Counted from the first letter of the stretch, positions 16,322-64,000 are shown. The stretch: 64,000 nt of DNA from Cellulophaga lytica DSM 7489 (GCF_000190595.1 NC_015167.1:1601501-1665500); one strand, 5' to 3'. Notes: a model not told the origin generated them from the sequence alone. Translations and numbers: made by a program.

Positions 16322-16326
16322 AACTT

Positions 16327-16334
16327 CAAAAATA
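16327..16334 (-). promoter_or_regulatory. Probable -7 box of plsC
   Basis: TATTTTTG on the minus strand matches TAnnTTTG and sits 6-13 bases before the start codon. That would leave almost no leader, so it is uncertain. Confidence 0.35.
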
Positions 16335-16409
16335 GCAATTAATTAAAACTATGGTTAAAAAAGTTTACTTTTTAATCGCATCAAACTAAAAAAAGCAAAA
16401 ACCAAAATG

Positions 16410-16440
16410 TTGGTCTATTCTTCTATTTGCATTACCTTTG
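16410..16440 (+). promoter_or_regulatory. trpS promoter (Bacteroidota type)
   Basis: TTG (16410-16412) and TACCTTTG (16433-16440) are separated by 20 bases, an excellent match to the flavobacterial consensus. The trpS ATG at 16465 follows with a short leader, which also supports that start. Confidence 0.8.
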
Positions 16441-16464
16441 ATTTTTACAATTATTTTAAATAAA

Positions 16465-17433
16465 ATGGCAAGAGTTTTAACAGGAGTACAGAGCACAGGA
16501 GTGCCACATTTAGGTAATATTTTAGGTGCAATTATGCCAGCAATAGAAATGGCAAACGACCCTAAAAACGAATCTTTTCTTTTTATAGCAGATATGCATT
16601 CGCTAACGCAAATAAAAAACGGAGAAGAATTACGTAACAACACCTATGCTGTAGCTGCTACTTGGCTTGCTTTTGGTTTAGATATTGAAAAAACTGTTTT
16701 TTACAGACAGAGTGATGTTCCGCAAACCACAGAATTATCATGGTATTTAAGCTGTTTTTTTCCGTACCAAAGACTAACTCTAGCACATTCCTTTAAAGAT
16801 AAGGCAGATAGGTTAGAAGATGTTAATGCTGGTTTATTTACTTACCCAATGCTTATGGCAGCAGATATATTGTTGTATGATGCGGAGATTGTGCCTGTAG
16901 GTAAAGACCAAATGCAGCATTTAGAAATTACTAGAGATGTAGCGTCTAGATTTCATGCGCAATTAGGAGAAACATTTGTTTTGCCACAAGGTAAGGTGCA
17001 AGAGGAATCTAAGTTTATTCCGGGTACAGATGGTACTAAAATGAGTAAGAGTAAAGGCAACTTAATTAATTTGTTTCAGACCGATAAGAAGTTGCGCAAA
17101 CAAATTATGGGTATACAAACAGATAGCACACCAATGGAAGACCCTAAAGACCCAGAAGGTGATAATGTGTTTGAGTTATATAAAATATTAGCAACAACAG
17201 AGCAGGTTGATGAAATGCGTGCTAAATATAAAGGTGGTAATTACGGATACGGACACGCAAAACAAGAGTTATTTGAGCTTATTATTGATAAGTTTGCAGA
17301 TGCACGTGAAAAGTATAATTATTACATGAATAATTTAGATGAGATAGATGCAGCACTTGCTAAAGGAGCAGCAAAGGCAACTGCGGTTGCAACTGAGGTG
17401 CTAAGTAGAGTAAGAGCAAAAGTAGGTTATTAA
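16465..17433 (+). CDS. trpS: Tryptophan--tRNA ligase
   Basis: This class I aminoacyl-tRNA synthetase charges tRNA-Trp. The start at 16465 (MARVLTGVQS) gives 322 residues, typical of the family. A Met nine codons upstream would lie next to the promoter and is not used. The HIGH-type motif is PHLGN (14-18) and the KMSKS loop is intact (192-196). A single gene follows its own promoter. Confidence 0.96.
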   Translation: MARVLTGVQSTGVPHLGNILGAIMPAIEMANDPKNESFLFIADMHSLTQIKNGEELRNNTYAVAATWLAFGLDIEKTVFYRQSDVPQTTELSWYLSCFFPYQRLTLAHSFKDKADRLEDVNAGLFTYPMLMAADILLYDAEIVPVGKDQMQHLEITRDVASRFHAQLGETFVLPQGKVQEESKFIPGTDGTKMSKSKGNLINLFQTDKKLRKQIMGIQTDSTPMEDPKDPEGDNVFELYKILATTEQVDEMRAKYKGGNYGYGHAKQELFELIIDKFADAREKYNYYMNNLDEIDAALAKGAAKATAVATEVLSRVRAKVGY

Positions 17434-17459
17434 CTTTTGCCCTTATTATACTGGTTTTT

Positions 17460-18212
17460 TTATTTAATAGAAATTAATTCTACATCAAAAATTAAAGCGG
17501 CGTAAGGAGGTATTTGGCCTCCTGCTCCGTTTTCTCCATAAGCCAATTCTTGAGGAATATAAATTCTGTATTTAGAGCCAACAGACATTAATTGTAATGC
17601 TTCTGTCCACCCTTTTATAACTTGCGATACTCCAAATACTATAGATTCTCCACGCTCTATAGAGCTATCAAAAATGGTTCCGTCTATAAGTTTCCCCTCA
17701 TAATGTACTTCAACTTTATCATCCGCAGTTGGTTTTTGACCATCAGCAGGAGTTAAAATCTCGTACTGTAATCCACTTTCTGTAGTTTTAATACCTTCTC
17801 TTTTAGCATTTTCGGCTAAAAAATTCTCGCTGTCTAACTTTAACCTTTTGGATTCTCTTTCTTTAATTTCCATCACGCTTTTCTGGATATATGAACTAGC
17901 GTCTTGTCTAGAAATTTTTTCGTTACCATTTAAAGTTTCTTCTAATGCAACTGCAAACACATCATAGTTAATAGACTTTACACCCACGGATTTTAAGCTG
18001 GTTCCTATTTCAACACCAAATGCGTAACTAAATTTGTGTATACTGTCGTTTAGGTTTACTTCTTTGGCTTTTTTAAGTTGATTTAACTCTTTTTTTAGGG
18101 TAGAAGCTTCAGATTTTAAAGCGGCTACTTCCTTTATTAAATCTTTCTTTTTTTGAGCATAACTAGCGTTACCTATTACAAGGGTTAATGCTACAATTAA
18201 TAGTTTTTTCAT
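17460..18212 (-). CDS. Exported FKBP-type peptidyl-prolyl isomerase
   Basis: This is an FkpA/Mip-like folding helper of the periplasm. It has a signal peptide (MKKLLIVALTLVIGNASYAQ), an N-terminal helical dimerisation part with a coiled-coil stretch (about 25-50), and a C-terminal FKBP domain (about 150-250). In that domain VHYEGKLIDGTIFDSS, VIKGW and YIPQELAYGE form the binding pocket. Length (250) and layout are normal. It converges on trpS with a 26-base gap. Confidence 0.92.
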   Translation of the reverse strand: MKKLLIVALTLVIGNASYAQKKKDLIKEVAALKSEASTLKKELNQLKKAKEVNLNDSIHKFSYAFGVEIGTSLKSVGVKSINYDVFAVALEETLNGNEKISRQDASSYIQKSVMEIKERESKRLKLDSENFLAENAKREGIKTTESGLQYEILTPADGQKPTADDKVEVHYEGKLIDGTIFDSSIERGESIVFGVSQVIKGWTEALQLMSVGSKYRIYIPQELAYGENGAGGQIPPYAALIFDVELISIK

Positions 18213-18488
18213 TTTTGTTTTCTAAATTTTCTATCAAAAGTAACCAAAATCTGTAGTATTTCTCCTTGTGTTTATTTCTATTTAATTAAAAGATGAAACA
18301 AACTATACGGTATGTTGTGTAAAATTTTGCAACAGTAACCATTATACATTTTAGGATTATTAGATGTATTTAAAAGACAAGCAACTTTATTTATGTATAG
18401 TAAGCCATTGTTTACTAGCCTAGCAAACTAACTAGTTTGTTTATTTAGGTATGTTAGTGGGGTATTAATGCTTTATTTTAGGGTGGTT
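18213..18488. other. Intergenic region between dprA and the FKBP gene
   Basis: About 275 bases. Near the FKBP gene lies a minus-strand -7 box, TACTTTTG (18242-18235). An imperfect palindrome, GCAAACTAACTAGTTTGT, lies around 18423-18440. I see no gene. Confidence 0.5.
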
Positions 18489-19589
18489 TTATATAGCTTC
18501 AAACAATTTTCCGGGTAGTGGTCTAATGGCTCCTTTCATTTCCATATTTAGTAATGTAGATGAGGTTTTGAAAACAGGAATGTTACACGCCAAAGCAATA
18601 GTATCTAGTAGCTGTTTGCCTTCAGTTTGTAAAAAAGAGTGTATTTGTTGCTCTACCTCGGTAAGTTCTACAAACAATTGTTGTTGCGTAATTTTTGGCT
18701 TTTGTTTAGGTTCCCAGCCTAATAAATATACAACATCTGCAGCAGAAGTAATCATTTGTGCTTTTTGTTGTTTAATTAAATTATTGCAACCTAAACTGTA
18801 TTTGTCTTGAGTTCTCCCAGGAACCGCAAAAACCTCTCTATTGTATCCGTGCGCTATATCTGCAGTAACTAAGCTACCTCCTTTTTCAGCAGATTCTACT
18901 ACCACAGTGGCTTCACTTAAGCCAGCAATAATTCTGTTTCGTTTTAAAAAATTTTCACGCTCTGGTGTGCTTGTGCTCCAAAACTCAGTTAAAAATCCGC
19001 CATTTTTCTCAATATCTGTTGTATACTTACTATGCACTTTTGGGTAAACTTGATTTAAACCATGTGCCAAGCAACCAATGGTTTGTAAACCGTGTTTTAT
19101 AGCTTCTTTTTGTATGCAAATATCTACGCCATATGCAAAGCCACTTACAATAATTGGATTTAAAGGAGCAATGTCAGCAATAAATTTTTCGCAAAAGGCA
19201 GTGCCATAACTAGTAATTTTACGTGTGCCAACAACACTAATAATTTTTCTATTTTTTAAATTGATATTCCCTCTTTTAAATAATAAAATAGGAGCATCTA
19301 TAGCGTGTTTTAAATAATCTGGATAATTTTCATCTTTAAAATAAAGTGTTTCAATATTATTTTTTTTAATAAATTGAAGCTCTTCTTCTGCAGCATCTAA
19401 ATGTGATGTGTCAAAAATATTTTTCAACTTTAGCGTTCCAATGCCATCAATTTTTAAAAGATCTGTTTTTCTACTACTAAAAATTTGAGAGGCACTGCCA
19501 CAATGGGCAATTAATTTTTTAGCTGTAACACTTCCAATATTAGGAATGCTTTGTAATCTTAAAGTTGCAATTAATTCTGTTGTAGTCAT
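18489..19589 (-). CDS. dprA: DNA-processing protein DprA
   Basis: DprA binds incoming single-stranded DNA and loads RecA during natural transformation. The N-terminus has helix-hairpin-helix-like sequence (residues about 10-60). The Rossmann-like core shows VVGTRKITSYG, VSGFAYGVD and the FLKRNRIIAGLS and GGSLVTADIA segments. A C-terminal winged-helix-like domain follows. Length (366) is normal. It is divergent from the HU-CCDC81/SPOR gene. Confidence 0.95.
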   Translation of the reverse strand: MTTTELIATLRLQSIPNIGSVTAKKLIAHCGSASQIFSSRKTDLLKIDGIGTLKLKNIFDTSHLDAAEEELQFIKKNNIETLYFKDENYPDYLKHAIDAPILLFKRGNINLKNRKIISVVGTRKITSYGTAFCEKFIADIAPLNPIIVSGFAYGVDICIQKEAIKHGLQTIGCLAHGLNQVYPKVHSKYTTDIEKNGGFLTEFWSTSTPERENFLKRNRIIAGLSEATVVVESAEKGGSLVTADIAHGYNREVFAVPGRTQDKYSLGCNNLIKQQKAQMITSAADVVYLLGWEPKQKPKITQQQLFVELTEVEQQIHSFLQTEGKQLLDTIALACNIPVFKTSSTLLNMEMKGAIRPLPGKLFEAI

Positions 19590-19693
19590 TTAGAGGCTTT
19601 CTGTAATTGGCTACAAAATACAACAATTAAAATGTTAATAAAAAGTTAGGCCAAATGTTAAAAGAAAGATGATTTTTTACAATATTTGCCACA

Positions 19694-20641
19694 ATGCGAA
19701 CAGAACAATATATTGAAGAATTATTATATAGGTACAACTGTGTTGTAATACCTGAGTTTGGAGCTTTTTTAACGCAAAAAAAATCTGCTGAACTAGATGA
19801 GGCTACTAATACCTTTACGCCACCTACAAAGATAGTTTCGTTTAACCAACAAGTAAATTCTAATGATGGCTTGTTAATAACATATATTGCAACGGCAGAA
19901 AAATCTACTTTTGAAGAGGTTTTGGAGGCGTTGACAAAAGAAGTTGAGCATTGGAAGAGAATGTTAAAATTGGGGCAAAGAATTAAGTTTGCTTCAGTAG
20001 GTGAGTTGTTTTTAAATGAGGACCAAAAAATACAATTTATACCAGCTAACCAAGTAAATTATTTAACAACATCTTTTGGTTTATCTACTGTAGTGGCATC
20101 ACCAGTTACTAGAGAAGTGTTAAAAGAAGAAGTGGTAGCTTTAGAAGAAGAAGTACCATTTATTATTACACCAGAAAAAAGAAAAACAACTACGTTTAGA
20201 CCGTATTTAAAGTATGCAGCAATTGCTTTATTGGCAATTTCTACTGGTTTAACAGGTTTACGTTACTACAATACTACAGTTGCAATACAAGAAATTGCAC
20301 AGCAAGATGCACAAGAGCAAATATCTAGAACTATACAAGAGGCTACTTTTTTTGATACTACACCATTAGAGCTGCCATCTTTGTCTTTAGATATTATTGC
20401 AAAGCCTGCTACGCAAGAGCATTATGTAATTGCTGGTGCATTTAGAGTGCAAAAAAATGCAAACCGTAAAATAAAAGAACTTAAAAAACAAGGCTATAAT
20501 GCACTGTATGTTGGCGTAAATAAATATGGTTTACACCAAGTAGCTTATGCAAGTTTTAGTGATGCTAACGAGGGTTTAAAGTTTTTGCAAAAAATTAAAT
20601 CGGGCGTATCTTCAGATGCTTGGTTGCTTTCAGTAAAGTAA
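19694..20641 (+). CDS. HU-CCDC81 and SPOR domain transmembrane protein
   Basis: This Bacteroidota family joins two HU-like (CCDC81) domains to a peptidoglycan-binding SPOR domain. Residues about 1-130 show the CCDC81 pattern (YNCVVIPEFGAFLTQ, then the second domain around LKLGQRIKFASVGELFL). A membrane helix lies at about 175-192 (YAAIALLAISTGLTGLRYY). The C-terminal SPOR domain runs from HYVIAGAFRVQKNANRK to the end. The HU part should be in the cytoplasm and SPOR in the periplasm, so the protein could link the nucleoid or another cytoplasmic partner to septal peptidoglycan (inference). It is divergent from dprA and followed by a thioesterase gene. Confidence 0.88.
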   Translation: MRTEQYIEELLYRYNCVVIPEFGAFLTQKKSAELDEATNTFTPPTKIVSFNQQVNSNDGLLITYIATAEKSTFEEVLEALTKEVEHWKRMLKLGQRIKFASVGELFLNEDQKIQFIPANQVNYLTTSFGLSTVVASPVTREVLKEEVVALEEEVPFIITPEKRKTTTFRPYLKYAAIALLAISTGLTGLRYYNTTVAIQEIAQQDAQEQISRTIQEATFFDTTPLELPSLSLDIIAKPATQEHYVIAGAFRVQKNANRKIKELKKQGYNALYVGVNKYGLHQVAYASFSDANEGLKFLQKIKSGVSSDAWLLSVK

Positions 20642-20671
20642 AATATTTTCTTTTTTAAATTAAAAGCGTAG

Positions 20672-20679
20672 TATCTTTG
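20672..20679 (+). promoter_or_regulatory. Probable -7 box for the thioesterase gene
   Basis: TATCTTTG matches TAnnTTTG exactly and lies 22 bases before the ATG at 20702. A clear -33 TTG is lacking. Confidence 0.6.
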
Positions 20680-20701
20680 CGCAAAATTTAAAAAATAGAA
20701 A

Positions 20702-21211
20702 ATGCACACACCTAAAGATAGTAGAACAGTTATGACAGATTTGGTACTCCCTAGTGAGACCAATCCGCTAAACAATTTGTTTGGTGGCGAACTGTTAGCG
20801 CGTATGGACAGGGCTGCTAGTATTGCTGCGCGTAGACACAGTAGACGTATAGTTGTAACTGCGTCTGTAAACCACGTAGCTTTTAATAGATCTGTTCCTG
20901 TAGGAAGTGTTGTTACTGTAGAAGCAGCTGTTTCTAGAGCATTTAAAACTTCTATGGAGATTTTTATTGATGTTTGGATAGAGGATAGGTTTAGCGGTGA
21001 AAAAACAAAAGCAAACGAAGCTATTTATACTTTTGTTGCTGTAGATGATACCGGAAAACCTACTGAAGTGCCTGCATTAATTCCTGAAACTGATTTAGAG
21101 GTTGAGCGTTTTGAAGCTGCTCTACGTAGAAAACAGCTTAGTTTGGTACTAGCTGGCAAGCTTAAACCTAAAGATGCAACTGAGTTAAAAGCAATATTTA
21201 TAGATAAATAA
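20702..21211 (+). CDS. Acyl-CoA thioesterase (hotdog fold, YciA/BACH type)
   Basis: The enzyme hydrolyses acyl-CoA thioesters in the cytoplasm. The hotdog signature is clear: NPLNNLFGGELLARMDRAAS, followed by HVAFNRSVPVGSVVTVEA. The 169-residue length fits single-domain members. It has its own promoter and a terminator shared with the convergent SDR gene. Confidence 0.9.
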   Translation: MHTPKDSRTVMTDLVLPSETNPLNNLFGGELLARMDRAASIAARRHSRRIVVTASVNHVAFNRSVPVGSVVTVEAAVSRAFKTSMEIFIDVWIEDRFSGEKTKANEAIYTFVAVDDTGKPTEVPALIPETDLEVERFEAALRRKQLSLVLAGKLKPKDATELKAIFIDK

Positions 21212-21285
21212 CAATTGGTATATTTAGAGGTAACAAGTTTAAAATGTGTTACTTAAGTGAAATGTACCATTTGGTATAAACTAAG

Positions 21286-21315
21286 AAACGGCTAGGAAAT
21301 TAATCCTAGCCGTTT
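21286..21315. terminator. Bidirectional terminator
   Basis: AAACGGCTAGGA (21286-21297) pairs exactly with TCCTAGCCGTTT (21304-21315), with T-rich sequence beyond. It lies between the convergent thioesterase and SDR genes. Confidence 0.88.
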
Positions 21316-21329
21316 TAGTTTAGGTGTTT

Positions 21330-22076
21330 TTAATTTCTTCCTGCTATTACGCCACCATCTGTATCCCATATGGCACCAGTTACCCATGATGCTTTATTAG
21401 ATAGTAAAAATACAATGCTATTAGCTACATCTTGTGGTGTACCATTACGGCCAATTGGGTGAAACCCATTTAAACCTTCTAATGCTTTTTCTGCTTCATC
21501 TTTACTACCAAAAACGCTATGATAAACCGGAGTATTTACTACGGCTGGCGATACAGCGTTTACTCTTATGTTATCATCTGCTAATTCCATAGCTAAATGC
21601 TGCGTTAAGGAGTGTAAACCTGCTTTTTGCATAGAGTAAGCAGAAGAAGGTGTCATTTTTACAGCTTGTTTTGCCCACATAGATCCAACATTTACAATAG
21701 AACCACCTTGGGTTGCTTTCATTTTTTTAGCTACAGCTTGTGTTAAAAAGAAAAAGCCTCTATTTAGGTCTAAATAAGCGTTGTAGTCGTCCTCATTGTG
21801 ATCTAAAAAAGGTTTTGGATTAAATATGCCAGAAGCATTAACTAGATAATCTACATCTTCTAATTGATTAATTTTGTCAACCAATTGTTTTAAATCTTCA
21901 CTGTTAGTGATGTCTGCTTTTACTTTAGATAAGTTTTTAGTGTCGTCTATCTTATCAATATTCCTACCAACAACTATTACGCTTGCTCCATTAGCTAACA
22001 ACTGTTCTGTGGTAGCTCTACCAATTCCGCTTGTACCACCAACTACTATGGCAACTTTGTCTTTTAAATCTTCCAT
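21330..22076 (-). CDS. Short-chain dehydrogenase/reductase (pair 1)
   Basis: A classical SDR that reduces or oxidises an unknown substrate with NAD(P). The start at 22076 ([14 protein letters not shown]) removes 18 non-conserved residues of the longer frame. Key motifs are the cofactor loop GGTSGIG, NASG, the catalytic Ser plus YSMQK (YxxxK), and the C-terminal ASWVTG...DGG typical of the FabG branch. Length is 248. Its upstream region carries the same 14-base operator sequence found at the promoter of the adjacent TetR gene, so it is probably derepressed by that regulator's ligand. Confidence 0.9.
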
Positions 22077-22102
22077 TTTTTTCTTTTTAATTTTTAATAT
22101 GA

Positions 22103-22116
22103 ACAGACAAGTCTGT
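22103..22116. promoter_or_regulatory. TetR operator upstream of SDR pair 1
   Basis: ACAGAC-AA-GTCTGT is a perfect palindrome around an AA centre, 27 bases before the SDR start codon. The stretch AGACAAGTCTGTCT (22105-22118) recurs identically at 22731-22744 at the TetR promoter. Confidence 0.75.
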
Positions 22117-22136
22117 CTTTGTTTATGCAAATTTTT

Positions 22137-22700
22137 TTAAGCTATGATTTGCGAACATATATTTTTTGTCTCCTTTATTGGCCAACTGTCTTGGTGTAAG
22201 TGACTTTCTGCGACAGCACTTTCATACAGTAAATAAATTTGTCTAGCATAACTATTCAGATTTTTATGGTTTTTAATTTCTAAATTATCAGCAATTAAGT
22301 TAGAAATTAAAGCTATGAAATTGGTTTTTTGATTTTGTATTTCTGCCCTAACACGTACATTATCTTTAGGGATTTCTGATACTGTTTTTATGCACCAACA
22401 GCCATTAAAATCTTTTTGAAGGAAGAAATTGTCTAAAAAGTCAAATAAAGCAAGAACACGTTGCTCCCCTTTTGGACTACTTTCGCAAAAGCTTTTAATA
22501 TCTTTTATAAAAGTAGCATTCATATGTTTTAGGTAAGCTAAACAAATGTCCTCTTTAGATTTAAAATGATTGTATAATGTTGCTTTAGCAATGCCAGATT
22601 CAGCTATAATTTCATTTATACCTGTAGCGTTATAACCATTTCTGTAGAAAAGAGCAGATGCTGTTTCTATTATATTTTGTTTTACCTTAGAATGTTTCAC
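22137..22700 (-). CDS. TetR/AcrR family repressor (pair 1)
   Basis: The product is 187 residues with an N-terminal helix-turn-helix (IIAESGIAKATLYNHFKSKEDI) and a variable ligand-binding C-terminus holding a CWC motif. I chose the GTG at 22700: the longer frame adds 12 residues not typical of the family, and the GTG sits just after a good -7 box. The gene ends 60 bases before the SDR start codon on the same strand. The shared operator at both promoters points to autoregulation and control of the SDR. The ligand is unknown. Confidence 0.88.
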   Translation of the reverse strand: MKHSKVKQNIIETASALFYRNGYNATGINEIIAESGIAKATLYNHFKSKEDICLAYLKHMNATFIKDIKSFCESSPKGEQRVLALFDFLDNFFLQKDFNGCWCIKTVSEIPKDNVRVRAEIQNQKTNFIALISNLIADNLEIKNHKNLNSYARQIYLLYESAVAESHLHQDSWPIKETKNICSQIIA

Positions 22701-22704
22701 TCTG

Positions 22705-22744
22705 CAAATATAGCATAAAATTTTACAAATAGACAAGTCTGTCT
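22705..22744 (-). promoter_or_regulatory. TetR (pair 1) promoter overlapped by its operator
   Basis: On the minus strand the -7 box is TATATTTG (22712-22705), with a -33 TTG at 22736-22734. The operator AGACAAGTCTGTCT (22731-22744) covers the -33 box, so binding would block initiation. Confidence 0.75.
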
Positions 22745-22750
22745 GTTTTT

Positions 22751-22790
22751 AGAAAAAAAAGAGCAACGTTTGTGTAAAGCTGCTCTTAGG
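22751..22790 (-). terminator. Terminator after SDR pair 2
   Basis: In the minus direction AAGAGCAGC and GTTGCTCTT form a stem followed by a run of eight or more T residues. The paired arms AAGAGCA/TGCTCTT lie at 22759-22765 and 22781-22787. It is a strong rho-independent signal just past the SDR stop. Confidence 0.85.
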
Positions 22791-22794
22791 TTTA

Positions 22795-23655
22795 TTATAG
22801 AAATGTGCTTGAAATTTGTTCAATAACCTTTTTTCCGTCAGGATCTCCAATTGTTTTTAATTTGGTAAAATCCTCTGCCCACGCTGATGTTCTTATGCGT
22901 AGAGGCGGGTTTTCATCCTCTGCTACGTTGGCAATAACCGTGGCAACTTCTAAAGGTGTTTGGTAGGTGTTTTCGGCCTCCTCATTTGCTCTGCGCTGAT
23001 TTCCTTCTAAATATTTTGCAAAAATAGGCTCATATTCACCCGTAGCAAATTGTCCGTCTACTGCTGTATTACTTATTGCAGATTTCATAAACTCTGTAGC
23101 AATACCACCTGGTTCTATCACAGAGAATTTTATATTAAACGAAGGGCCTACATAAGTAGCCAAACCTTCAATAAAGCCTTCTACTGCAAATTTTGCTGCA
23201 CAATATAACTCATTAAACGGCTGACCAATTAATCCGCCTACTGATGATAATGTTATTATATGACCTGCTTTTTGTTTTCTCATATAAGGTAGTACTGTTT
23301 TGGTAGTAAATACAACACCTAAATAGTTTACGTTAGTAACCCACTCAATTTCTTTTACAGTGGCCTGTTCTGTTGTTTTAGCAAATCCTGCGCCAGCGTT
23401 ATTTATTAGTATATCTATTTTTTTATCTTTAGAAATAATGTATTCTACAGTTTTGGTAATAGTTTCTTGTTTAGTAACATCTAACTCAAGTATTTCAATA
23501 TCTAATTTTTCTTTCTCAATTTTATGTTTTAGAGCTTCGCTTTTAGAAAGATTACGCATGGTAGCGTAAACTTTGTAACCATTTTTAGCAAATAGTATTG
23601 CTGTTTCTAATCCTACTCCTGTTGATGTTCCTGTGATTAATACGTTTTTTTTCAT
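22795..23655 (-). CDS. Short-chain dehydrogenase/reductase (pair 2)
   Basis: A second, different SDR of 286 residues. The start at 23655 (MKKNVLITGTSTGVG) places the cofactor loop TGTSTGVG directly at the N-terminus; the longer frame upstream runs through operator DNA. NNAGAG, the catalytic serine region TLSSVGG and YCAAK are present. The sequence belongs to the classical SDR branch with a longer C-terminus often annotated as oxidoreductase of unknown substrate. The region upstream carries a partial copy of the operator found at the neighbouring TetR gene. Confidence 0.9.
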   Translation of the reverse strand: MKKNVLITGTSTGVGLETAILFAKNGYKVYATMRNLSKSEALKHKIEKEKLDIEILELDVTKQETITKTVEYIISKDKKIDILINNAGAGFAKTTEQATVKEIEWVTNVNYLGVVFTTKTVLPYMRKQKAGHIITLSSVGGLIGQPFNELYCAAKFAVEGFIEGLATYVGPSFNIKFSVIEPGGIATEFMKSAISNTAVDGQFATGEYEPIFAKYLEGNQRRANEEAENTYQTPLEVATVIANVAEDENPPLRIRTSAWAEDFTKLKTIGDPDGKKVIEQISSTFL

Positions 23656-56522: not shown

Positions 56523-57665
56523 TTATTTAAAGTTGTGTAAGCTTTTTTTTATTGATTTTTTATAATTTAAAGGAGTGATACCCTTGATGTTTTTAAAGAC
56601 TCTGTTAAAAGTTGTTTTTGAATTAAAACCACATTCAAAAGAAATACCCAATAAAGTGATGTGATCATAATTACCGCTATGTAATTTTTGAATAATGGCA
56701 TTTACCCGGTATTCATTTATAAAGTCTGAGAAGTTTTTACCTAAGCCATCATTTATTAATTTTGATAGAACATTTGGATGGATGTCAAGATTGTCAGCTA
56801 AAGATTTCAATGTTAATTCTGAATTAAGGTAAAAAAGATTGGTTTCCATTTGTTCTTTTAACCAAGATGCTTTTTTTGCAATTTCTTCAGATGGATTTTC
56901 TTTTTTTATACTTTTTGGTTTATTGGTTTCAAGTAAAATTACTTCTGGTCTTAAAAAAGCTTCAGCACTAATCCAAATGGTGGTAATAGAAAGTAACACA
57001 TAAATAGGATAATAATCACTTATTCCTAATTGAAAATCGAAGACAACATAATCAATAATGGTATAAGGAGTCCATAAAAACCAAATTATTGCAAATATGG
57101 TAATTAATCTATACAACCACCTTAAACTATATGCATCATTAGTACTATAATTTTTTTTTAACCAGAAATGATAAAATTTGATTGCCTTAAGTGAATAAAT
57201 TGAATAAGTAATGATTGAGATTATGGCTAAAAATTGAATGATGGGCATTAATTTAAGGTATGTATCAGTTTCTACAGCAGTAATATTATTTATAAGCGCA
57301 TCACGGCAAATAATTATATGCACGGTAAGTTCTATTATAAGCGGTAAAAAATGAACGCCATGTTTTTTAGATATATGATAGTTAAAATCGGTTATTTTTT
57401 TAACATATAAATATAGTAAGGGACCAAGTGCCAGAGAGTAATTTAATGGAATTAAATAGAAATAGGTCAGGTAATTAGTTATTTGAAAATCCAAACTCAA
57501 AATCCAAACACTCCAAAAAACAATGATAAAAGTAACTATACCAAGCAGTATATTGGCTTTTCTATTAGCCCGTTTAGTAAAAATAAGTAACAGTCCAAAT
57601 GTTGTTCCTATAAATATAGATGCAATTATAATAAAGTTATAAAAATTTAAATTTAATTCACACAT
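56523..57665 (-). CDS. AraC family regulator with membrane-embedded N-terminus
   Basis: 380 residues. The first 240 residues hold about seven membrane helices, and the C-terminal domain (LTLKSLADNLDIHPNVLSKLI and LGISFECGFNSKTTFNRVFKNIKG) is an AraC-type DNA-binding unit. Such proteins sense signals at the membrane and bind DNA directly. The serine hydrolase gene follows in the same direction and is the probable target. The start lies 45 bases from the first boundary site of element A. Confidence 0.88.
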   Translation of the reverse strand: MCELNLNFYNFIIIASIFIGTTFGLLLIFTKRANRKANILLGIVTFIIVFWSVWILSLDFQITNYLTYFYLIPLNYSLALGPLLYLYVKKITDFNYHISKKHGVHFLPLIIELTVHIIICRDALINNITAVETDTYLKLMPIIQFLAIISIITYSIYSLKAIKFYHFWLKKNYSTNDAYSLRWLYRLITIFAIIWFLWTPYTIIDYVVFDFQLGISDYYPIYVLLSITTIWISAEAFLRPEVILLETNKPKSIKKENPSEEIAKKASWLKEQMETNLFYLNSELTLKSLADNLDIHPNVLSKLINDGLGKNFSDFINEYRVNAIIQKLHSGNYDHITLLGISFECGFNSKTTFNRVFKNIKGITPLNYKKSIKKSLHNFK

Positions 57666-57710
57666 TAATTATATTCAGTATCTATATTTTATGTAATGTT
57701 TCTTTGGCTT

Positions 57711-57939
57711 GTTGCTAACGGGTTGGTTATGCGCTGTGCGGGAGTAAGGAAACCTTTTGTTTTCGTCTGCGCACTAAGCTAAAGCTTATTGTTTAGTTTT
57801 ATTTTTTCTTGTCTAAAGCTAAATTTTGAATATTTCGCTATCGCGTAATTTTCAATTTATCGACTTTATAAAAGTACACAAGCTTTTTGAATAAATACCA
57901 AACCTCCGCATTAATTATAGGCATTGTTTTGCGTAGGCT
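57711..57939. repeat. Cassette-boundary element A (long class)
   Basis: A gene-free element, 212 bases from AAC (57717-57719) to GTT (57926-57928). The left edge GTTGCTAAC (57711-57719) faces the AraC/serine hydrolase pair. The right edge is GTTTTGCGTAGGCT (57926-57939), which matches the complement of the left edge of element B at 12 of 14 positions. The ends pair only partly (GTGCGGGAG with the complement of CCTCCGCAT). Interior segments TTGTTTAGTTTT and TCTAAAGCTAAAT are shared in altered form with element B. Confidence 0.75.
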
Positions 57940-57943
57940 TTTT

Positions 57944-58396
57944 TCATCTAACCGCCCTTATTGGATACGGTTTCAATTCTTTTTTTAGTCCTTCTATAAC
58001 TTTTTGCAATTGTGAGTTATCCATTTTACAGTCCACAAAATAATCTTTTTTATCATCTGCACTCTTAGGTCTAGATTCTAAGTCAAATTTTATGCGAACA
58101 GTTTTAAAGTCCATTCCAGCTTTGATTAGCTCAAATGCCAAATTTGGCTCGATAAAATCCAAACATTCATATTTTGGCGTTTTGTTTTGAGATATTTTTT
58201 CGAACCACTCTATTATTTCTATTACATCTCCAACCAAAAGTGATGGGTCAACAGTTTGCCAATTTCCACAGTCACTTTTTACATTTAGATAAATCAATAA
58301 CCAATTAGAATCATATTCGCAATCCGTTATTTTAGGAAACTGATAATTTGTTATTTTTAATTCTACAATTTGGTTATTAATGCCGTGAAATATCAT
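57944..58396 (-). CDS. WapI-like immunity protein
   Basis: 150 residues, cytoplasmic. YQFPKITDCEYDSNWLLIYL, DPSLLVGDVIEIIEWFEKI and the FIEPNLAFEL and FDLESRP segments resemble the WapI family of immunity proteins that protect against contact-dependent toxins. I see no toxin gene beside it, so it may be an orphan immunity gene. It sits alone between elements A and B, bracketed by inverted repeats, with the start codon 20 bases from the boundary at 58416. Confidence 0.75.
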   Translation of the reverse strand: MIFHGINNQIVELKITNYQFPKITDCEYDSNWLLIYLNVKSDCGNWQTVDPSLLVGDVIEIIEWFEKISQNKTPKYECLDFIEPNLAFELIKAGMDFKTVRIKFDLESRPKSADDKKDYFVDCKMDNSQLQKVIEGLKKELKPYPIRAVR

Positions 58397-58415
58397 TCAA
58401 TATCGTATAATTTTT

Positions 58416-58620
58416 AGCTTACGCACAACGGTTGAGCTATGAACAGTACGGGAGCAAACTAGTGTTTGCTTTCCACCACACACACATAGCGAAATCTTTT
58501 TGTTTAGTTTTTATTTTTTTGTTCAAAGCAAAATCCCAAAGTTTTGGCGACCTCATAAATATACACAGACCTTTCGGTTTTGCCCTAAAGTCCGCATTAC
58601 GTTTAGGCTTTGTTAGCAAC
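58416..58620. repeat. Cassette-boundary element B (long class)
   Basis: 188 bases from AAC (58427-58429) to GTT (58612-58614). Left edge AGCTTACGCACAAC pairs with the right edge of A across the WapI-like gene. Right edge GTTAGCAAC (58612-58620) is the exact complement of the left edge of C. TTGTTTAGTTTTTATT and CAAAGCAAAAT resemble element A, and TGGCGACCTC (58545-58554) recurs in element F. Confidence 0.8.
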
Positions 58621-58631
58621 TGGCTTTTGCG

Positions 58632-59177
58632 TTATACTTTGCCGTAAATTATTTTCAATTCCGTTCCGATTACCTTTTCTAATTCGATAAAAAATTCACT
58701 TTTGAATATTCCCCAATTCCAAAAGATTAGACCAAAATCTCCAAATGCCCAATCTGGTTCGAAATTGAATTCGGTTATTGAACTATCAGATAAGCAATTC
58801 GAGCATTTTATTAAATCTGAATCCGATTTCTCATACCAGTTTCCCAATGCACTTCCCCAATCCTCTTCAATCTGATTTTGTCCACATTTTGGGCAGTTAA
58901 CTTGCTCAAGTCCATTTCCGCCATTTTCAAAAACCTTTCTTTCGGTCACCACTTCAACTCCGTTTGTTGTTAAGTCCAAAAACCCCTCATTTTGTTTTTC
59001 AAGTATTGAAGCAAAATTTTCGGCTGGTTTGTGTCCATTCGAACCAAGAACACAATCAGAGAGCTCTTTTTTAATAATTTTCTTTTCAGCCAAAAAGCTA
59101 ATTACTTTTTCCGCAAGTTCTTTAGAATCCGCTGGATTAGTTTTTTCTGAAACAATGGATGTATGGTGGTCACTCAC
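58632..59177 (-). CDS. Zinc-ribbon protein of unknown function
   Basis: 181 residues, cytoplasmic. The start MSDHHTSIVSEKTNPADSKE and the DCVLGSNGHKPAENF segment occur as a unit. A zinc ribbon lies in the middle (NCPKCGQNQ and KCSNCLSDSS). The tail is aromatic-rich (FEPDWAFGDFGLIFWNWG). I do not recognise a named family; the size and setting would fit another immunity protein. It is bracketed by GTTAGCAAC and its complement, with stop and start 12 and 13 bases from the boundary sites. Confidence 0.7.
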   Translation of the reverse strand: MSDHHTSIVSEKTNPADSKELAEKVISFLAEKKIIKKELSDCVLGSNGHKPAENFASILEKQNEGFLDLTTNGVEVVTERKVFENGGNGLEQVNCPKCGQNQIEEDWGSALGNWYEKSDSDLIKCSNCLSDSSITEFNFEPDWAFGDFGLIFWNWGIFKSEFFIELEKVIGTELKIIYGKV

Positions 59178-59189
59178 TTTTTTAAGCTT

Positions 59190-59326
59190 GTTGCTAACGT
59201 TTAGTGTATGATTTCGGTGCGTGTTTAAGCATTAAAGTTAGCAAATAATCACAGATAGAAAATTCCAGCGGAATTTTCGTAAGTAAGCCTTTACTAGCAA
59301 TGAATTATACACAATGTTACCATACG
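59190..59326. repeat. Cassette-boundary element C (short class)
   Basis: 123 bases from AAC (59196-59198) to GTT (59316-59318). The element is an imperfect palindrome: GTGTATGATT on the left faces AATTATACAC on the right. The centre is a perfect hairpin, GAAAATTCC (59258-59266) with GGAATTTTC (59270-59278). It shares TAGCAAATAA and ACTAGCAATGAATTATACAC with element E. Confidence 0.85.
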
Positions 59327-59331
59327 TTTTT

Positions 59332-59808
59332 TTATTCCGTTAATGTTTTGTTTTTATTCTTGAAAATCAAAATACTCAATATTGTTCCGATTAAAAAACC
59401 AATGAATAAATAACGTCCAAAATTCAGATTGTCAAAATTCAGTTCTGTTTGAATTCCGTTTCCAATATTAAATTCAGATAGTTTTTGCAATCTATTGTTC
59501 AGTTGAAATATTCTGAATTGCCATAGCAAAATTCCGCAAACAAATATTATTCCGCAAGAAACCAAACCTTGATTCATAAAGTTCAGTTTAGTCATTTTTT
59601 TTATAATCAGATAGAGTAGAGGAATAATTCCTATTGACAAAGCGAATAAAATATGCGAATAAAATTGTCCGCTCATAGTTCTGCTAGTAATCTGACTGTT
59701 TTTATTGGCTATTTGGGAAAGAGAAAAGTCAAGAAAGTAATCTCGAATTAAAAATCCGATTACAGATAATATTAAAATCAGTCCTAAATATTTTAATGCG
59801 TTCGTCAT
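59332..59808 (-). CDS. Membrane protein of unknown function
   Basis: 158 residues with four hydrophobic helices (starting LGLILILSVIGFLI, ending FLIGTILSILIF). No motif or family is recognised. It stands alone between elements C and D. Its flanks GTTACCATAC and GTATGGTAAC are perfect complements, and the start codon lies 10 bases from the boundary. Confidence 0.7.
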   Translation of the reverse strand: MTNALKYLGLILILSVIGFLIRDYFLDFSLSQIANKNSQITSRTMSGQFYSHILFALSIGIIPLLYLIIKKMTKLNFMNQGLVSCGIIFVCGILLWQFRIFQLNNRLQKLSEFNIGNGIQTELNFDNLNFGRYLFIGFLIGTILSILIFKNKNKTLTE

Positions 59809-59817
59809 TTCTCAAAT

Positions 59818-59955
59818 GTATGGTAACGTGTTTGTATATGGTTTGTTGCGTGGTTTAGACACCTAATTTAGCAAATAAAAACCGAATAGAAAATCCGCGA
59901 GGATTTTCGTAAGTAGGCTAGAACTAGCAATAAATTATATACGGTGTTGGCAATA
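59818..59955. repeat. Cassette-boundary element D (short class)
   Basis: 124 bases from AAC (59825-59827) to GTT (59946-59948). The central hairpin is GAAAATCC (59889-59896) with GGATTTTC (59901-59908) around GCGA. CGTAAGTAGGCTA is shared with element E. Right edge GTTGGCAATA (59946-59955) is the exact complement of the left edge of E. Confidence 0.85.
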
Positions 59956-59959
59956 GTTT

Positions 59960-60733
59960 TTAATGTATACATCCTAAATATATTTCGCTAAACGTGTTTC
60001 TTATTTTTTTCGTTAGTCGTTTATTACAATATTCGGAAATGTATAGTCCAAATGGTTCTGTTGAAGTATGAGGTTGTCCATCTCCATTTTCAAATCTATC
60101 CATATCAATTTCTCCAAGAAAATTATATCTTATACTCGCCCACAATTCAAAACCTAATTCTATGTCTAAATCTGGGTCATATCCTGAACCTTTTCCTGCT
60201 TTAACTTTCTTACTTATTAAACCTAATTCTTCAAGTAGCATTGTAGAACAAGTGTGAGCTATTAAATCAGCGAGTTGAATTCCTTTTACTTTTGAAGAAT
60301 CTACTTCTAAATTCAGTTTATATTTGTTTAAACCAAGTTCAAAACACAACATTTCTCCTTGTCGAGAATTTTTAAAATAATTTTCGTCAATGTTTATTTC
60401 TATTTTTTCTCCAAAGTCATTACTATCTATAATTTTTTTCAATCCTTTTAAAGTTTCTATTCCAATTTTTTCTCTGTGAGTTATTGGCAAGATAATAAGT
60501 CCAATTTTACAATTTTTACGAATTAGGTAATTCAACTGTCTACGTACTTTAATCATTGAAGGATTATTCGGACTACATAACCGACTTTTAAATTCGTCGT
60601 TTTTTTTGTCTAAACCATTTTCGATGAGTATTTCAGATATTTGTTTTTCAACATCTTTTTCAGTCGTAATTACTCCACTTATTATAAATTTCCCTCTTTC
60701 GTGGGTTGAATCATCAATGTAAATTCGGGTCAT
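59960..60733 (-). CDS. DUF3800 domain protein
   Basis: 257 residues. The N-terminal TRIYIDDSTH and the C-terminal SSKVKGIQLADLIAHTCSTM are the two acidic motifs of the DUF3800 family, an RNase H-like fold often found in mobile elements and defence loci. Its nuclease activity has not been shown in general. It stands alone between elements D and E; start and stop lie 8 and 4 bases from the boundary sites. Confidence 0.83.
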   Translation of the reverse strand: MTRIYIDDSTHERGKFIISGVITTEKDVEKQISEILIENGLDKKNDEFKSRLCSPNNPSMIKVRRQLNYLIRKNCKIGLIILPITHREKIGIETLKGLKKIIDSNDFGEKIEINIDENYFKNSRQGEMLCFELGLNKYKLNLEVDSSKVKGIQLADLIAHTCSTMLLEELGLISKKVKAGKGSGYDPDLDIELGFELWASIRYNFLGEIDMDRFENGDGQPHTSTEPFGLYISEYCNKRLTKKIRNTFSEIYLGCIH

Positions 60734-60741
60734 TCTTTAAT

Positions 60742-60879
60742 TATTGCCAACGTTGATGTGTATGATTTCGTTGCGTGTTTAAGCACTAAATATAGCAAAT
60801 AAATCACAGATAGAAAGTCCGCGAGGACTTTCGTAAGTAGGCTATAACTAGCAATGAATTATACACGGTGTTGTAAATA
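60742..60879. repeat. Cassette-boundary element E (short class)
   Basis: 124 bases from AAC (60749-60751) to GTT (60870-60872). TGTGTATGATTTCGTTGC on the left pairs with the right arm GCAATGAATTATACACGG apart from a bulge and G-U pairs. The centre is GAAAGTCC (60813-60820) with GGACTTTC (60825-60832) around GCGA. Right edge GTTGTAAATA is the exact complement of the left edge of F. Confidence 0.87.
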
Positions 60880-60891
60880 GTACTTTTTCTG

Positions 60892-61476
60892 CTATTTTCT
60901 TAACCAACCTAAAATTCTATCGTTTTTTATTTTCCATTTTCCGTTTTCATTTATCAAATCATATTTTTCTCTTGAATTTCCAAAAGGTCCAGGATTTTGT
61001 TGAATAATCTCAACTTCGTTTTCGGTTACTTTGGAAACAATTGAAACGTGTCCATATTTATTTAGCGTTGTTGCAGAGTAAATCACTAAATCATTTACTT
61101 TCGGTTTGGATTTACTTGGATTCTTATACTGCTTTAAATTTCGCTGTTTGTTTATTTTTCCGTCCTTGATTTGTGAATTAAAAAAGTCTTTTGCGTGTCC
61201 ATAACTGTCAGGCATTTTATGATTCAGTTCTTCGTAATAATATCGCTTTACAAATTCCACGCATTGATATTTCAGTCCAAGATTATAGCCATCTTTCGCT
61301 AACGCTCGTCCATCCACATTTCCAACTCCTCCATTATAATAAACAGCAACTCCGTTCAGACTGTCAATTTTTTGTCCGACTTCATAATTCGGATTTAGAT
61401 TGATTTTTTTAGAAGCGAAAAACCCAACAACAAGTAAAATCAAAATTCCAAATAAGAGTAAAAATCGTTTTTTCAA
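60892..61476 (-). CDS. CHAP domain amidase-like exported protein
   Basis: 194 residues with an N-terminal membrane anchor or signal (FLLLFGILILLVVGFFASK). The CHAP fold is indicated by YQCVEFVKRYY (Cys72) and NKYGHVSIVSKV (His143), with the usual spacing. CHAP enzymes cut peptidoglycan crosslinks or gamma-glutamyl bonds. It lies alone between elements E and F; a role as secreted cell-wall hydrolase is likely but untested. Confidence 0.85.
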   Translation of the reverse strand: MKKRFLLLFGILILLVVGFFASKKINLNPNYEVGQKIDSLNGVAVYYNGGVGNVDGRALAKDGYNLGLKYQCVEFVKRYYYEELNHKMPDSYGHAKDFFNSQIKDGKINKQRNLKQYKNPSKSKPKVNDLVIYSATTLNKYGHVSIVSKVTENEVEIIQQNPGPFGNSREKYDLINENGKWKIKNDRILGWLRK

Positions 61477-61500
61477 TTCGTTCGTGATGTTTTTGGGTAT

Positions 61501-61700
61501 TATTTACAACGGTCTTGTGTATGAAACGTAGCGTATAAAAAGACGCTAACTTTTCGGATTTAGCACGAGCCGAATTTTTAATTTTCTTTTTAACTTTTCT
61601 ATTGTCAAAAATACAAATTAAAAATATGGCGACCTCGCAAATAAGCCCAAGCCATTGGTCAAGAACTATTTGCCCTATTTTTTATATACATTGTTATGCC
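61501..61700. repeat. Cassette-boundary element F (long class)
   Basis: 188 bases from AAC (61508-61510) to GTT (61693-61695), the same length as element B. TGGCGACCTC (61627-61636) is shared with B. The interior carries a minus-strand -7 box match, TATTTTTG (61613-61606), upstream of the CHAP gene. The right edge GTTATGCC (61693-61700) has no complementary partner further right in this window. Confidence 0.75.
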
Positions 61701-61703
61701 TTG

Positions 61704-62240
61704 TTATTTTTCGCACGCAATCTTTAAAAGTTCCATTCCTCTAGCATTCATTTTTTCCATATCTTTTTTTGCACCGAAAAGCCACATAAAAAAGGAATCA
61801 ACCAATCCAGATTTTAAATTGAAATCTTGTGTTACTTTAATCAAGTTGCCTGTTTTTTGAAAAGAGTACTCAAAAGTAGGACTTGCCTTAAATGGTTTTT
61901 GAATATCACAATCCATTTTTATATACTCTAAAGGTCGAATTTCCGTAATTTCTTGATAGCCCAAATCCTTTCCGTTGTTACCGTCCCAATGAAACTGGAC
62001 ACCAACTTGTCCATCCGTTCCTTTAATACTTGTTTTTTGGTTAGGGTCGGCTTCATAGAATGGTGACCATTTCGTAAAGTTTTTCAGATAAAGCACGTTA
62101 TCGAAAGTGGTCCGCATTTCTGATTGGACATTCACGGTTTTTTGAATGTGAATATGTTGTAATTTACTTGCATTATAAAACCCAATTCCTAAGAACAGAA
62201 TTAATGCTACTGCGATTATTATTAGTATCATTTTTTTCAT
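61704..62240 (-). CDS. SRPBCC family (START-like) membrane-anchored protein
   Basis: 178 residues. An N-terminal helix (MILIIIAVALILFLGIGFY) anchors a START-like domain with WSPFYEADPNQK, GYQEITEIRPLEYIKM and a C-terminal helix. Members bind hydrophobic ligands. It is co-transcribed with the YCII-like gene 15 bases upstream. It borders element F but may not be a cassette, as no matching boundary lies to its right. Confidence 0.83.
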   Translation of the reverse strand: MKKMILIIIAVALILFLGIGFYNASKLQHIHIQKTVNVQSEMRTTFDNVLYLKNFTKWSPFYEADPNQKTSIKGTDGQVGVQFHWDGNNGKDLGYQEITEIRPLEYIKMDCDIQKPFKASPTFEYSFQKTGNLIKVTQDFNLKSGLVDSFFMWLFGAKKDMEKMNARGMELLKIACEK

Positions 62241-62255
62241 TTTTCAAAGTTTATA

Positions 62256-62609
62256 TTAATTTTCCATTGGTATAATATTCCGAACTTCAACCGAGCCACC
62301 CATTTTTAGAATTGGACTGTCTTTGGCCATTTCAACCGCTTCATTTAAAGAGTTTGCTTTAACAATCATATTTCCACTAATTGTTTTGTTTTCAGAAACT
62401 AATATTCCGTCTGCGATTGATAAATCGGGAGCGATTTGTTTTCCGTCAAAACCCAATTGATGAGTGCTATCAAGCTTTTCTTTAATAGCGATGTTGCCGA
62501 TGAAACTGCCCCATTCTTGTTGCATTTGTTCCATTTCTTTTTTTGTCGGTTGATATTCAGGATTAGGACTAAAACTGAAAATCATCATAAATTTTAGTTC
62601 TGCTTTCAT
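62256..62609 (-). CDS. YCII-like protein
   Basis: 117 residues. LKFMMIFSFSPNPEYQPTKKE, GILVSENKTISGNMIVKANSLNEAVEMAKDSPIL fits the YCII/DGPF family of small enzymes or ligand-binding proteins. The proposed catalytic His-Asp pair of YciI is not obvious. A minus-strand -7 box, TACTTTTG (62648-62641), lies 32 bases upstream, so the two-gene unit with the SRPBCC gene has its own promoter. Confidence 0.82.
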   Translation of the reverse strand: MKAELKFMMIFSFSPNPEYQPTKKEMEQMQQEWGSFIGNIAIKEKLDSTHQLGFDGKQIAPDLSIADGILVSENKTISGNMIVKANSLNEAVEMAKDSPILKMGGSVEVRNIIPMEN

Positions 62610-62640
62610 TTCTTTTAATTTTTAATGTTAAACGATACAC

Positions 62641-62648
62641 CAAAAGTA
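62641..62648 (-). promoter_or_regulatory. -7 box of the YCII-like/SRPBCC operon
   Basis: TACTTTTG on the minus strand matches TAnnTTTG. No clean -33 at the usual distance. Confidence 0.5.
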
Positions 62649-62694
62649 AAAGAGGGAAAACACAAAAATCTTTGCCTATGACAAGAAATGACAA

Positions 62695-63390
62695 TTAGGC
62701 TTTTTTGAGCCAAGATAATTTGCGAAAAACCAATAGATGAAGAAAAATAATTGTTGGTGGTGCAAAAGCTGGAATAAAGCAAAATGGAAATTCCGCTAAA
62801 AACTCTACTCCTTGAATACTATTGTCGATACTGATTTTGGTAAAAATAATAGCCATTGCCGAAGTGATTAAAATATCGACAAGCCCAAAAGTGTTCCAAA
62901 TGTAAGTTAGTTTTCTAGCGTAGTTTTTTTTGTTTCGTATAGCTTTTGCCACAAAAATGCTTGATATAGCAGTTAGTAAATCTCCAATACCAGCGAAAAG
63001 GGCAAAAACTGGTGGTAATAAATCATAAAGGAACAGAATGATAAAAGTGCTACCAATCAGGCGGAATATATGAATCTTAACTAAATCTTCAAGGTTTAAG
63101 ATGGTATTTGCTTTTTTGCAGATTTCGGTATTATATATTATGGTAACGAATATTGCCAAAGGAAGCGTTGTTGTCAAAACAATTTTGGGCGGTAACATTA
63201 CGTCATCAAAAAAGCCATACAAACTTGCTATTGCAACTATAATTAGGTAGGGAATGTAAAAACCAAGAACCAACCAAAATCCGTTTTTTATTTTTCCTTT
63301 TTTTGCCAAACGGGCTACCATTACTACAGGAAACATAAACGCTAATAGAAAAAGGATAGAAAATATTTCAGGTATTTGATTTGAAAACAT
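62695..63390 (-). CDS. Polytopic membrane protein of unknown function
   Basis: 231 residues with six or seven hydrophobic helices (from IFSILFLLAFMFPVVMVARL to PPTIIFLHLLVFRKL). No charged motif that marks a known transporter is visible. It lies nine bases after the Crp-like gene, so both are transcribed together and the regulator may control its own operon. Confidence 0.72.
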   Translation of the reverse strand: MFSNQIPEIFSILFLLAFMFPVVMVARLAKKGKIKNGFWLVLGFYIPYLIIVAIASLYGFFDDVMLPPKIVLTTTLPLAIFVTIIYNTEICKKANTILNLEDLVKIHIFRLIGSTFIILFLYDLLPPVFALFAGIGDLLTAISSIFVAKAIRNKKNYARKLTYIWNTFGLVDILITSAMAIIFTKISIDNSIQGVEFLAEFPFCFIPAFAPPTIIFLHLLVFRKLSWLKKA

Positions 63391-63399
63391 AGGTTGATA

Positions 63400-63975
63400 T
63401 TATAAAGTGATTTCTTTTCTAATTCTACTTAAAGATGTGTCTGTAATTCCCAAATATGTAGCAATATGTTTTAGAGGAACATTTTGAATTATTGAAGGTT
63501 TTTCTTTTAATAAGTTTAAATATCGGTCTTTCGCTTGGTCGGCAATCACAGATATTGAATGATTCTTTAATTCAAAGTAGTTATTTACAAGCCGTGTTCT
63601 GCCTACTTCTCTAAAAGCTTCAATGTTAAATAATTTCATAAAGTTGGCAAAACTAATTTTCCAACATTTTCCTTTTGTTAATGCTTGAATAGATTCTTTA
63701 CAAGGTTTTTTTAAAAAATAGGAATGCCAATCTATCACAATATCATTTTCTGCAAAGAATTTAGTAGTAATATCATTTCCTTCCGTGTCAATGCTATATG
63801 AACGTAAAAAACCTGTCTCCAAGAAGTAATAGTAACTAGCTACTTTTCCTTTTTCGATTAGATATTCGTTCTTGCTAAATTCAACTTCTTCAAATTGCAT
63901 TAAAATCAATTCTAATTCCTCCGAATTAAAGTTTTCTTGTTTAAAAATGCTATTTAAAAAATGGGTTTGGTTCAT
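63400..63975 (-). CDS. Crp/Fnr family transcriptional regulator
   Basis: 191 residues. The cyclic-nucleotide-binding-like domain (NEYLIEKGKVASYYYFLETGFLRSY) and the C-terminal helix-turn-helix (PLKHIATYLGITDTSLSRIRK) are clear. It is a separate branch from the Crp-like gene at 52808. A near-consensus minus-strand -7 box (AACCTTTG, 63990-63983) lies directly upstream, and the gene heads an operon with the membrane protein. Confidence 0.87.
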   Translation of the reverse strand: MNQTHFLNSIFKQENFNSEELELILMQFEEVEFSKNEYLIEKGKVASYYYFLETGFLRSYSIDTEGNDITTKFFAENDIVIDWHSYFLKKPCKESIQALTKGKCWKISFANFMKLFNIEAFREVGRTRLVNNYFELKNHSISVIADQAKDRYLNLLKEKPSIIQNVPLKHIATYLGITDTSLSRIRKEITL

Positions 63976-64000
63976 TGTTGTTCAAAGGTTTTTTATAATA

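Follow-up and report, generated by a model that had tools for sequence, protein, structure and literature searches.

We analysed a window of 64,000 nt from the genome of Cellulophaga lytica LIM-21 (bases 1601501-1665500; window coordinate = genome coordinate - 1601500), a single contig of 3,765,936 bp that agrees with the published length (PMC3111997). At window positions 57711-61700, an earlier note on this DNA had described five minus-strand genes alternating with six palindromic elements and had read them as an array of mobile gene cassettes like those of integrons. This arrangement was confirmed: six gene-free, partly palindromic elements (attC sites) are interleaved with five minus-strand genes, and the start and stop codons of these genes lie close to the element edges. 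The paper describing the genome (PMC3111997) does not mention an integron or integrase, and an Rfam scan of 57000-64000 returned no relevant match. The features in the window are as follows.

57706-57719, minus strand: last R' core of the array, GTTAGCAACAAGCC, at the distal array end.
57720-58429, minus strand: cassette A, with a WapI-like immunity gene (57944-58396; PF24716, E = 6e-37) and attC A (57720-57928); its start GTTGTGCGTA pairs with TACGCAAAAC with one mismatch.
58430-59198, minus strand: cassette B, with a gene (58632-59177) for which a Pfam search gave no match and attC B (58430-58614); GTTAGCAAC pairs with GTTGCTAAC.
59199-59827, minus strand: cassette C, with a gene (59332-59808), likewise without a match in a Pfam search, and attC C (59199-59318); GTTACCATAC pairs with GTATGGTAAC.
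59828-60751, minus strand: cassette D, with a DUF3800 gene (59960-60733; PF12686) and attC D (59828-59948); GTTGGCAATA pairs with TATTGCCAAC.
60752-61510, minus strand: cassette E, with a CHAP-domain gene (60892-61476; PF05257) and attC E (60752-60872).
61511-64000, minus strand: cassette F, with attC F (61511-61695) and four genes at 61704-62240, 62256-62609 (YCII-like), 62695-63390 and 63400-63975 (binding cyclic nucleotide monophosphates); GTTATGCCTT pairs with AAGGCATAAC.

Elements C, D and E belong to one family, with 62-76% identity to the reference copy across 149 nt. Read on the minus strand, the elements open with NNNNNNYAAC, with few exceptions, and close with C/GTTRNNNNNN, the slash marking the cassette boundary. 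Of the two elements that flank a gene, the upstream one closes with bases whose reverse complement opens the downstream one, as illustrated by GTTGTAAATA ... TATTTACAAC on the two sides of the CHAP gene. Each cassette starts with GTTRNNNNNN, and its own attC opens with the reverse complement of that sequence (R''). A cassette array is indeed present at 57711-61700, but the end previously placed at 61700 was wrong, as the array runs to genome position 1685155, around 20 kb past the window edge, and comprises 30 cassettes, all on one strand. The sixth of these, cassette F, starts at window position 64009, just beyond the window, where GTTATGCCTTAT pairs with AAGGCATAAC.

Across the 30 cassettes, the seven variable core positions agreed with the cassette's own R'' in 191 of 210 cases, compared to a mean of 87.3 (sd 8.1, maximum 120) when the partners were permuted 10,000 times. 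Agreement between an R'' and the core physically following it in the linear array was only 88/210. Pairing with the cassette's own core, not the next one, would be expected of cassette circles, since circularization makes the start of a cassette the R' partner of its own attC. At position 11, every start has A and almost every R'' has C, which gives an A.C mismatch on the top strand but a G.T pair on the bottom one, and pairing resumes at positions 12-13. One cassette (1682766) has no good partner, with 6 nt only. Over the whole array GTTR was found in 30 of the 31 cores and GTTRRRY in one, so the remark that the bases after GTT do not fit the classical core was a real one. We had considered the 9-10 nt complementarity to be unique to the C. 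lytica-type system and have dropped this idea, since a few cassettes of classical IntI integrons in the same phylum show a similar extension; the differences from classical arrays that we claim are limited to the missing RRRY and the missing IntI domain (see below).

Several cassettes are present two or three times within the array. In two duplicated pairs (744 bp and 514 bp), identity is 100% between GTT and the C that precedes the following GTT, and the flanks share GTT only, which places the exchange point at or within C/GTT. By sequence comparison, the cassettes thus move as units with exact boundaries. Folding of the attC sites with DNA parameters gave a more stable bottom than top strand in 27 of 29 (p = 5e-6), and for all 29 the circular configuration folded better than the linear one. 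Integrons use bottom-strand attC hairpins, and the predicted folding bias agrees with this use but is no proof of it.

Cassettes and attC sites related to those of C. lytica were found in other genera. One C. lytica attC body class was matched in 80 of 149 Flavobacteriaceae genera, at up to 98% identity; a search for Class II attC in plasmids gave no DNA match. At 28 loci where the attC bodies are 91-100% alike, the adjoining genes are all different, no two being alike, and an exact partner was found at the start of the own cassette in 24 of the 28, whereas swapped partners matched in only 10 of 732 combinations. Near-identical elements thus stand behind different genes in different genera; the earlier note had proposed to look for copies between different genes in related strains. 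The CHAP cassette E has a counterpart with 79% DNA identity in an array of Psychroserpens, where the two core halves have changed together (GTTGTAAATA and TATTTACAAC in C. lytica, TTGTACCTA and TAGGTACAA in Psychroserpens). For another C. lytica cassette, the counterpart was found in Aestuariivivens; it is also 79% identical and begins exactly at C/GTT. In the latter pair (L149:15066-16010 and genome 1670101-1669143), the gene and the R'' ends are the same and the attC body is different; attC bodies seem, on this comparison, to be exchanged separately from genes. The DUF3800 gene of cassette D is sporadic, being present in one of 199 family genomes, its own copy only.

These data bear on whether the elements are transcription terminators or repetitive extragenic palindromic (REP)-like repeats between ordinary genes, with small genes lined up by chance. 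Palindromic elements close behind stop codons would fit such a reading, yet each element has a cassette-specific partner of 9-10 nt at the far end of its gene, whole cassettes are duplicated exactly, and in many genera near-identical elements lie behind genes that are unrelated. This reading is ruled out by the partner test (24/28 compared to 10/732) and the duplication test, and we give it practically no chance. Neither of the observations that the earlier note had named as refuting cassettes, the same genes and elements in one order in distant relatives or elements serving as terminators of fixed operons, was seen.

The earlier note had no tyrosine recombinase in view. One heads the array, around 20 kb beyond the window edge. 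A PF00589 search found five tyrosine recombinases in the C. lytica genome, one of which lies directly upstream of the first cassette, with its stop codon 49 nt from it:

genome 1685204-1686097, same strand as the cassettes: 297-aa tyrosine recombinase.

It is IntI-like and does not carry the IntI-specific domain. Among NCBIfam models, it scored 207 bits with XerA_Arch NF040815 (cut-off 220), 206.8 with the integron integrase model TIGR02249 (cut-off 265, in two stretches), 170.9 with XerD (cut-off 329.6) and 166 with XerC (cut-off 335), every score being below the cut-off. The catalytic residues R153, K178, R245, H268 and Y277 are invariant among 31 family members and H242 is conserved in more than 90%. 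The predicted structure (mean predicted local distance difference test score, pLDDT, 83) matched XerA and IntI4 about equally by E-value, with a higher template-modelling (TM) score for IntI4. Alignment to IntI4 (2a3v) breaks at the IntI-specific additional domain, which was not found in the 297-aa protein: 22 residues stand against 65 (IntI4 residues 181-245).

Could this be a classical integron that has merely diverged and has an ordinary IntI? The TIGR02249 score of 206.8 bits, the place of IntI4 among the two best solved structures by both sequence and fold, and an array layout identical in plan would fit such an origin. The score is nevertheless under the curated cut-off, and IntI4 residues 181-245 have no counterpart. 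Box I and box II are 93 residues apart, around 42 fewer than the 135 in true IntI of the same phylum. A tree of 100 sequences placed 19 true IntI of the phylum in one starred group and 79 members of the recombinase family apart from it; the outgroup was two Xer-like proteins (L031, L033) encoded by separate genes in the C. lytica genome, and its long branches leave the deep order unsure. The single GTTRRRY among 31 cores and the common direction of integrase and cassettes also speak against a classical integron, which we regard as very unlikely. True IntI proteins occur in 46 of the 148 genomes from this phylum; among the matches listed over the cut-off, none came from the window's own order.

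Integrase and cassettes run in the same direction, therefore the integrase and first cassettes could share a transcript. Two features upstream of the integrase were also observed. A palindrome, CGTTTATATACGTATATAAACG (with variants), is located about 67 nt upstream of its start (L032; L082, L083, L086, L087) and contains the CGTTTA motif of attI; it was seen in the Cellulophaga/Hyunsoonleella group and possibly points to autoregulation by the recombinase. A conserved, divergent zinc-ribbon-like gene (MKMKFCLSCNKEL...; genome 1686179-1686586, L080:14888-15292 and L078) is common to C. lytica and two close relatives.

The gap from the recombinase stop codon to the first cassette contains the palindromic sequence AATAAACGCAATAAACTGCGTTTACTAACTA/GTTGGC, the attI of this array. 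It adjoins the integrase gene as an attI should, but is downstream of it and in the same direction. An identical palindrome was found behind the orthologues of three more Cellulophaga; Hyunsoonleella and one further genome have a close variant there, and the first cassette is a different one in each. More distant relatives have other palindromes (AATAAACACAATTGTGTTTATT and the like) at the same place, and for many of their first cassettes a partner of 9-10 nt, matching exactly, lies downstream. The C. lytica genome contains a further 14 or so attI-like sites (around 15 in total), nearly all directly followed by a cassette start:

genome 383333, 810380, 1038788, 1045953, 1062156, 1068524 and 1076106: attI-like sites.
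genome 1715630, 1927500, 1989613, 1991563, 2482361, 2502973 and 2652714: attI-like sites.

An extended attI form of around 65 bp with three CGTTTA motifs is common to most platforms. A second gene of the 297-aa recombinase family was not found in the C. lytica genome which, together with the further platforms, suggests that one enzyme serves many platforms in trans.

A conserved attI next to a tyrosine recombinase is also difficult to reconcile with each gene being a small transposon that has its own short terminal inverted repeats and is moved by a transposase in trans. A unit-specific inverted repeat of around 10 bp does flank each gene unit. These repeats vary by unit, hence there is no common transposase site; the units abut head to tail on one strand with a single shared GTT, and target duplication beyond GTT was not seen. 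The transposon reading was rejected on the partner and duplication tests, and we hold it to be very improbable.

To follow the recombinase family through the Bacteroidota, we used a sample of 80 relatives and a strand-specific signature, GTT N7 A ... C N7' AAC (10 nt exact, 180-6000 bp apart). Downstream of the 80 genes, 119 signature pairs were found on the integrase strand and 12 on the other strand, 10 of the latter at one locus; upstream there were 8 and 9, despite scanning twice as much DNA. That locus (L155, Salinimicrobium sp. TH3) differs from all the others in carrying the downstream signature on both strands (12 and 10 pairs). The contig ended less than 4 kb downstream of the gene in 50 of the 80 loci, compared to 12 less than 4 kb upstream, as would be expected if the repeats in arrays interrupt assembly. 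At the joined loci L078/L079 (G034; joined offsets 15335-23015), a large cassette region lies between two copies of the same cassette gene and carries a DNA methyltransferase-like gene whose neighbours make it resemble a restriction-modification set. Two Chryseobacterium plasmids (L263, L264) encode family members of around 347 aa with an attI-like palindrome and cassette starts, possibly mobile versions of the platform.

Around 50 Acinetobacter plasmids carry a member of the recombinase family, as determined by tblastn against plasmids. In the two plasmids examined (L261, L262), a recombinase copy truncated at its 5' end stands directly upstream of tet(X3) (L261:5067-7162), and the sequence between them, TATACGCCATTTGGCGTATAGCCACTT/GTTATGTGCCATTTTTGAATG, consists of an attI palindrome and a cassette start. 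Furthermore, the tigecycline-resistance gene tet(X) was found as a 1327-bp cassette in four genomes (L265-L268) that we take to be of the family Weeksellaceae. The cassette has the ends C/GTTATGTGCCAT ... AAACGGCACATAAC...CAAAC/GTT, with 13 of 14 partner bases matching, and is 100% identical in three genera with differing flanks (two share the left neighbour). Movement of tet(X3) has been ascribed to ISCR2, in a unit dISCR2-xerD-tet(X3)-res-ISCR2, in the part of PMC8635130 considered here, where no description of its cassette boundaries was found. The 'xerD' of this unit is a truncated member of the recombinase family and its tet(X3) is at the attI position, whereas the mobility is credited there to ISCR2. 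These findings would be joined most simply if tet(X) travelled between Flavobacteria as a cassette and ISCR2 later took it onward, along with the attI and part of the integrase. With tet(X) as a cassette, there is a concrete way for a resistance gene of clinical importance to have got out of Flavobacteria.

Taken together, the segment 57711-61700 is very probably the distal end of a chromosomal integron-type cassette array run by a tyrosine recombinase, and the proposal of mobile cassettes is supported by the array anatomy, the attI, the exact boundaries, the duplications and the exchange between genera. The recombinase at the head of the array would excise and insert single cassettes, usually one gene with its attC, by recombination at the shared GTT of the C/GTTR cores, and new cassettes would enter at the palindromic attI just after the recombinase gene. 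Recombination would probably use each attC as a folded single strand, the bottom one. Once a cassette is circular, the R'' half of its attC would pair with the opening bases of the same cassette along 10-14 nt, so that each cassette would carry its own matching core in place of a common GTTRRRY core.

Several points weigh against this interpretation. The signature was undetected in some family members, many contigs stop just past the gene, and scanning the locus of a relative with 58% integrase identity (G079) gave no array signature. Across 149 Flavobacteriaceae genera, the recombinase and one attC class are modestly associated (odds ratio 2.3, p = 0.02), therefore some arrays have no detected recombinase. 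The strand preference is read from folding energies, and excision, insertion, the circle intermediate, the bottom-strand substrate and recombination catalysed by the 297-aa protein are inferred. Sequence comparison does show the array, the cassette boundaries and their complementarity, the attI, an association with the recombinase family across many genera, and movement of cassettes from one context to another.

The earlier note had left a choice between a divergent Bacteroidota integron and a separate system. The answer lies between both: the system works like an integron and is outside the published integron definition, because the IntI-specific domain and the GTTRRRY core are missing, and it is an integron-type system of a new variety. 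This domain serves to define integrons (PMC9668308) and, by the title of Messier and Roy 2001 as cited in PMC2426708, is necessary for integron recombination; cassette capture without it would make it possible to test directly what is needed for attC recombination and how integrons originated. IntegronFinder 2.0 found almost no complete integrons in Bacteroidetes, Salinibacter ruber being named (PMC9024848). Against this near-zero count, one attC class alone occurs in more than half of the Flavobacteriaceae genera, so a large stock of mobile genes may have been overlooked. No earlier description of the system was found in openly licensed PubMed Central papers; one may exist in subscription journals or preprints. 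We consider it likely that this is a second, Bacteroidota-wide integron lineage whose recombinase never had or has lost the IntI domain, with cassette-specific cores and one integrase for around 15 attI sites, outside the IntI definition used by integron finders, and the source of the mobile tet(X) cassette.

Xer proteins resolve chromosome dimers at dif. The C. lytica recombinase is similar to archaeal XerA and to XerC and XerD in length and in a domain layout without the IntI insert, with XerA among the top matches by sequence and fold; unlike them, its gene adjoins cassette arrays, and it does not reach the XerC/XerD equivalog score. The strand-biased circularizing elements SE-6945 and Tn6283 (PMC9345347) also use tyrosine recombinases and strand-biased chemistry, but they carry their own recombinases, and attC-like imperfect inverted repeats were undetected at their sites (PMC9345347). 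C. lytica arrays without an adjacent integrase gene are like clusters of attC sites lacking integrases (CALINs), but open at attI-like sites and look like insertion platforms served in trans. Integrons, including sedentary chromosomal integrons, share with the C. lytica system a tyrosine recombinase beside attI, head-to-tail and mostly single-gene cassettes on one strand, hairpin attC sites with R and L type arms, crossover at GTT, R''/R' complementarity within the own cassette, a bottom strand that folds better, cassette duplication and diverse accessory genes. They differ from it in that the C. lytica recombinase is without the domain that defines IntI (PMC9668308, PMC2426708), its core is GTTR plus cassette-specific bases and not GTTRRRY, its attI is a palindrome downstream of an integrase gene that runs in the same direction as the cassettes, and a single such integrase gene was found for around 15 attI platforms.

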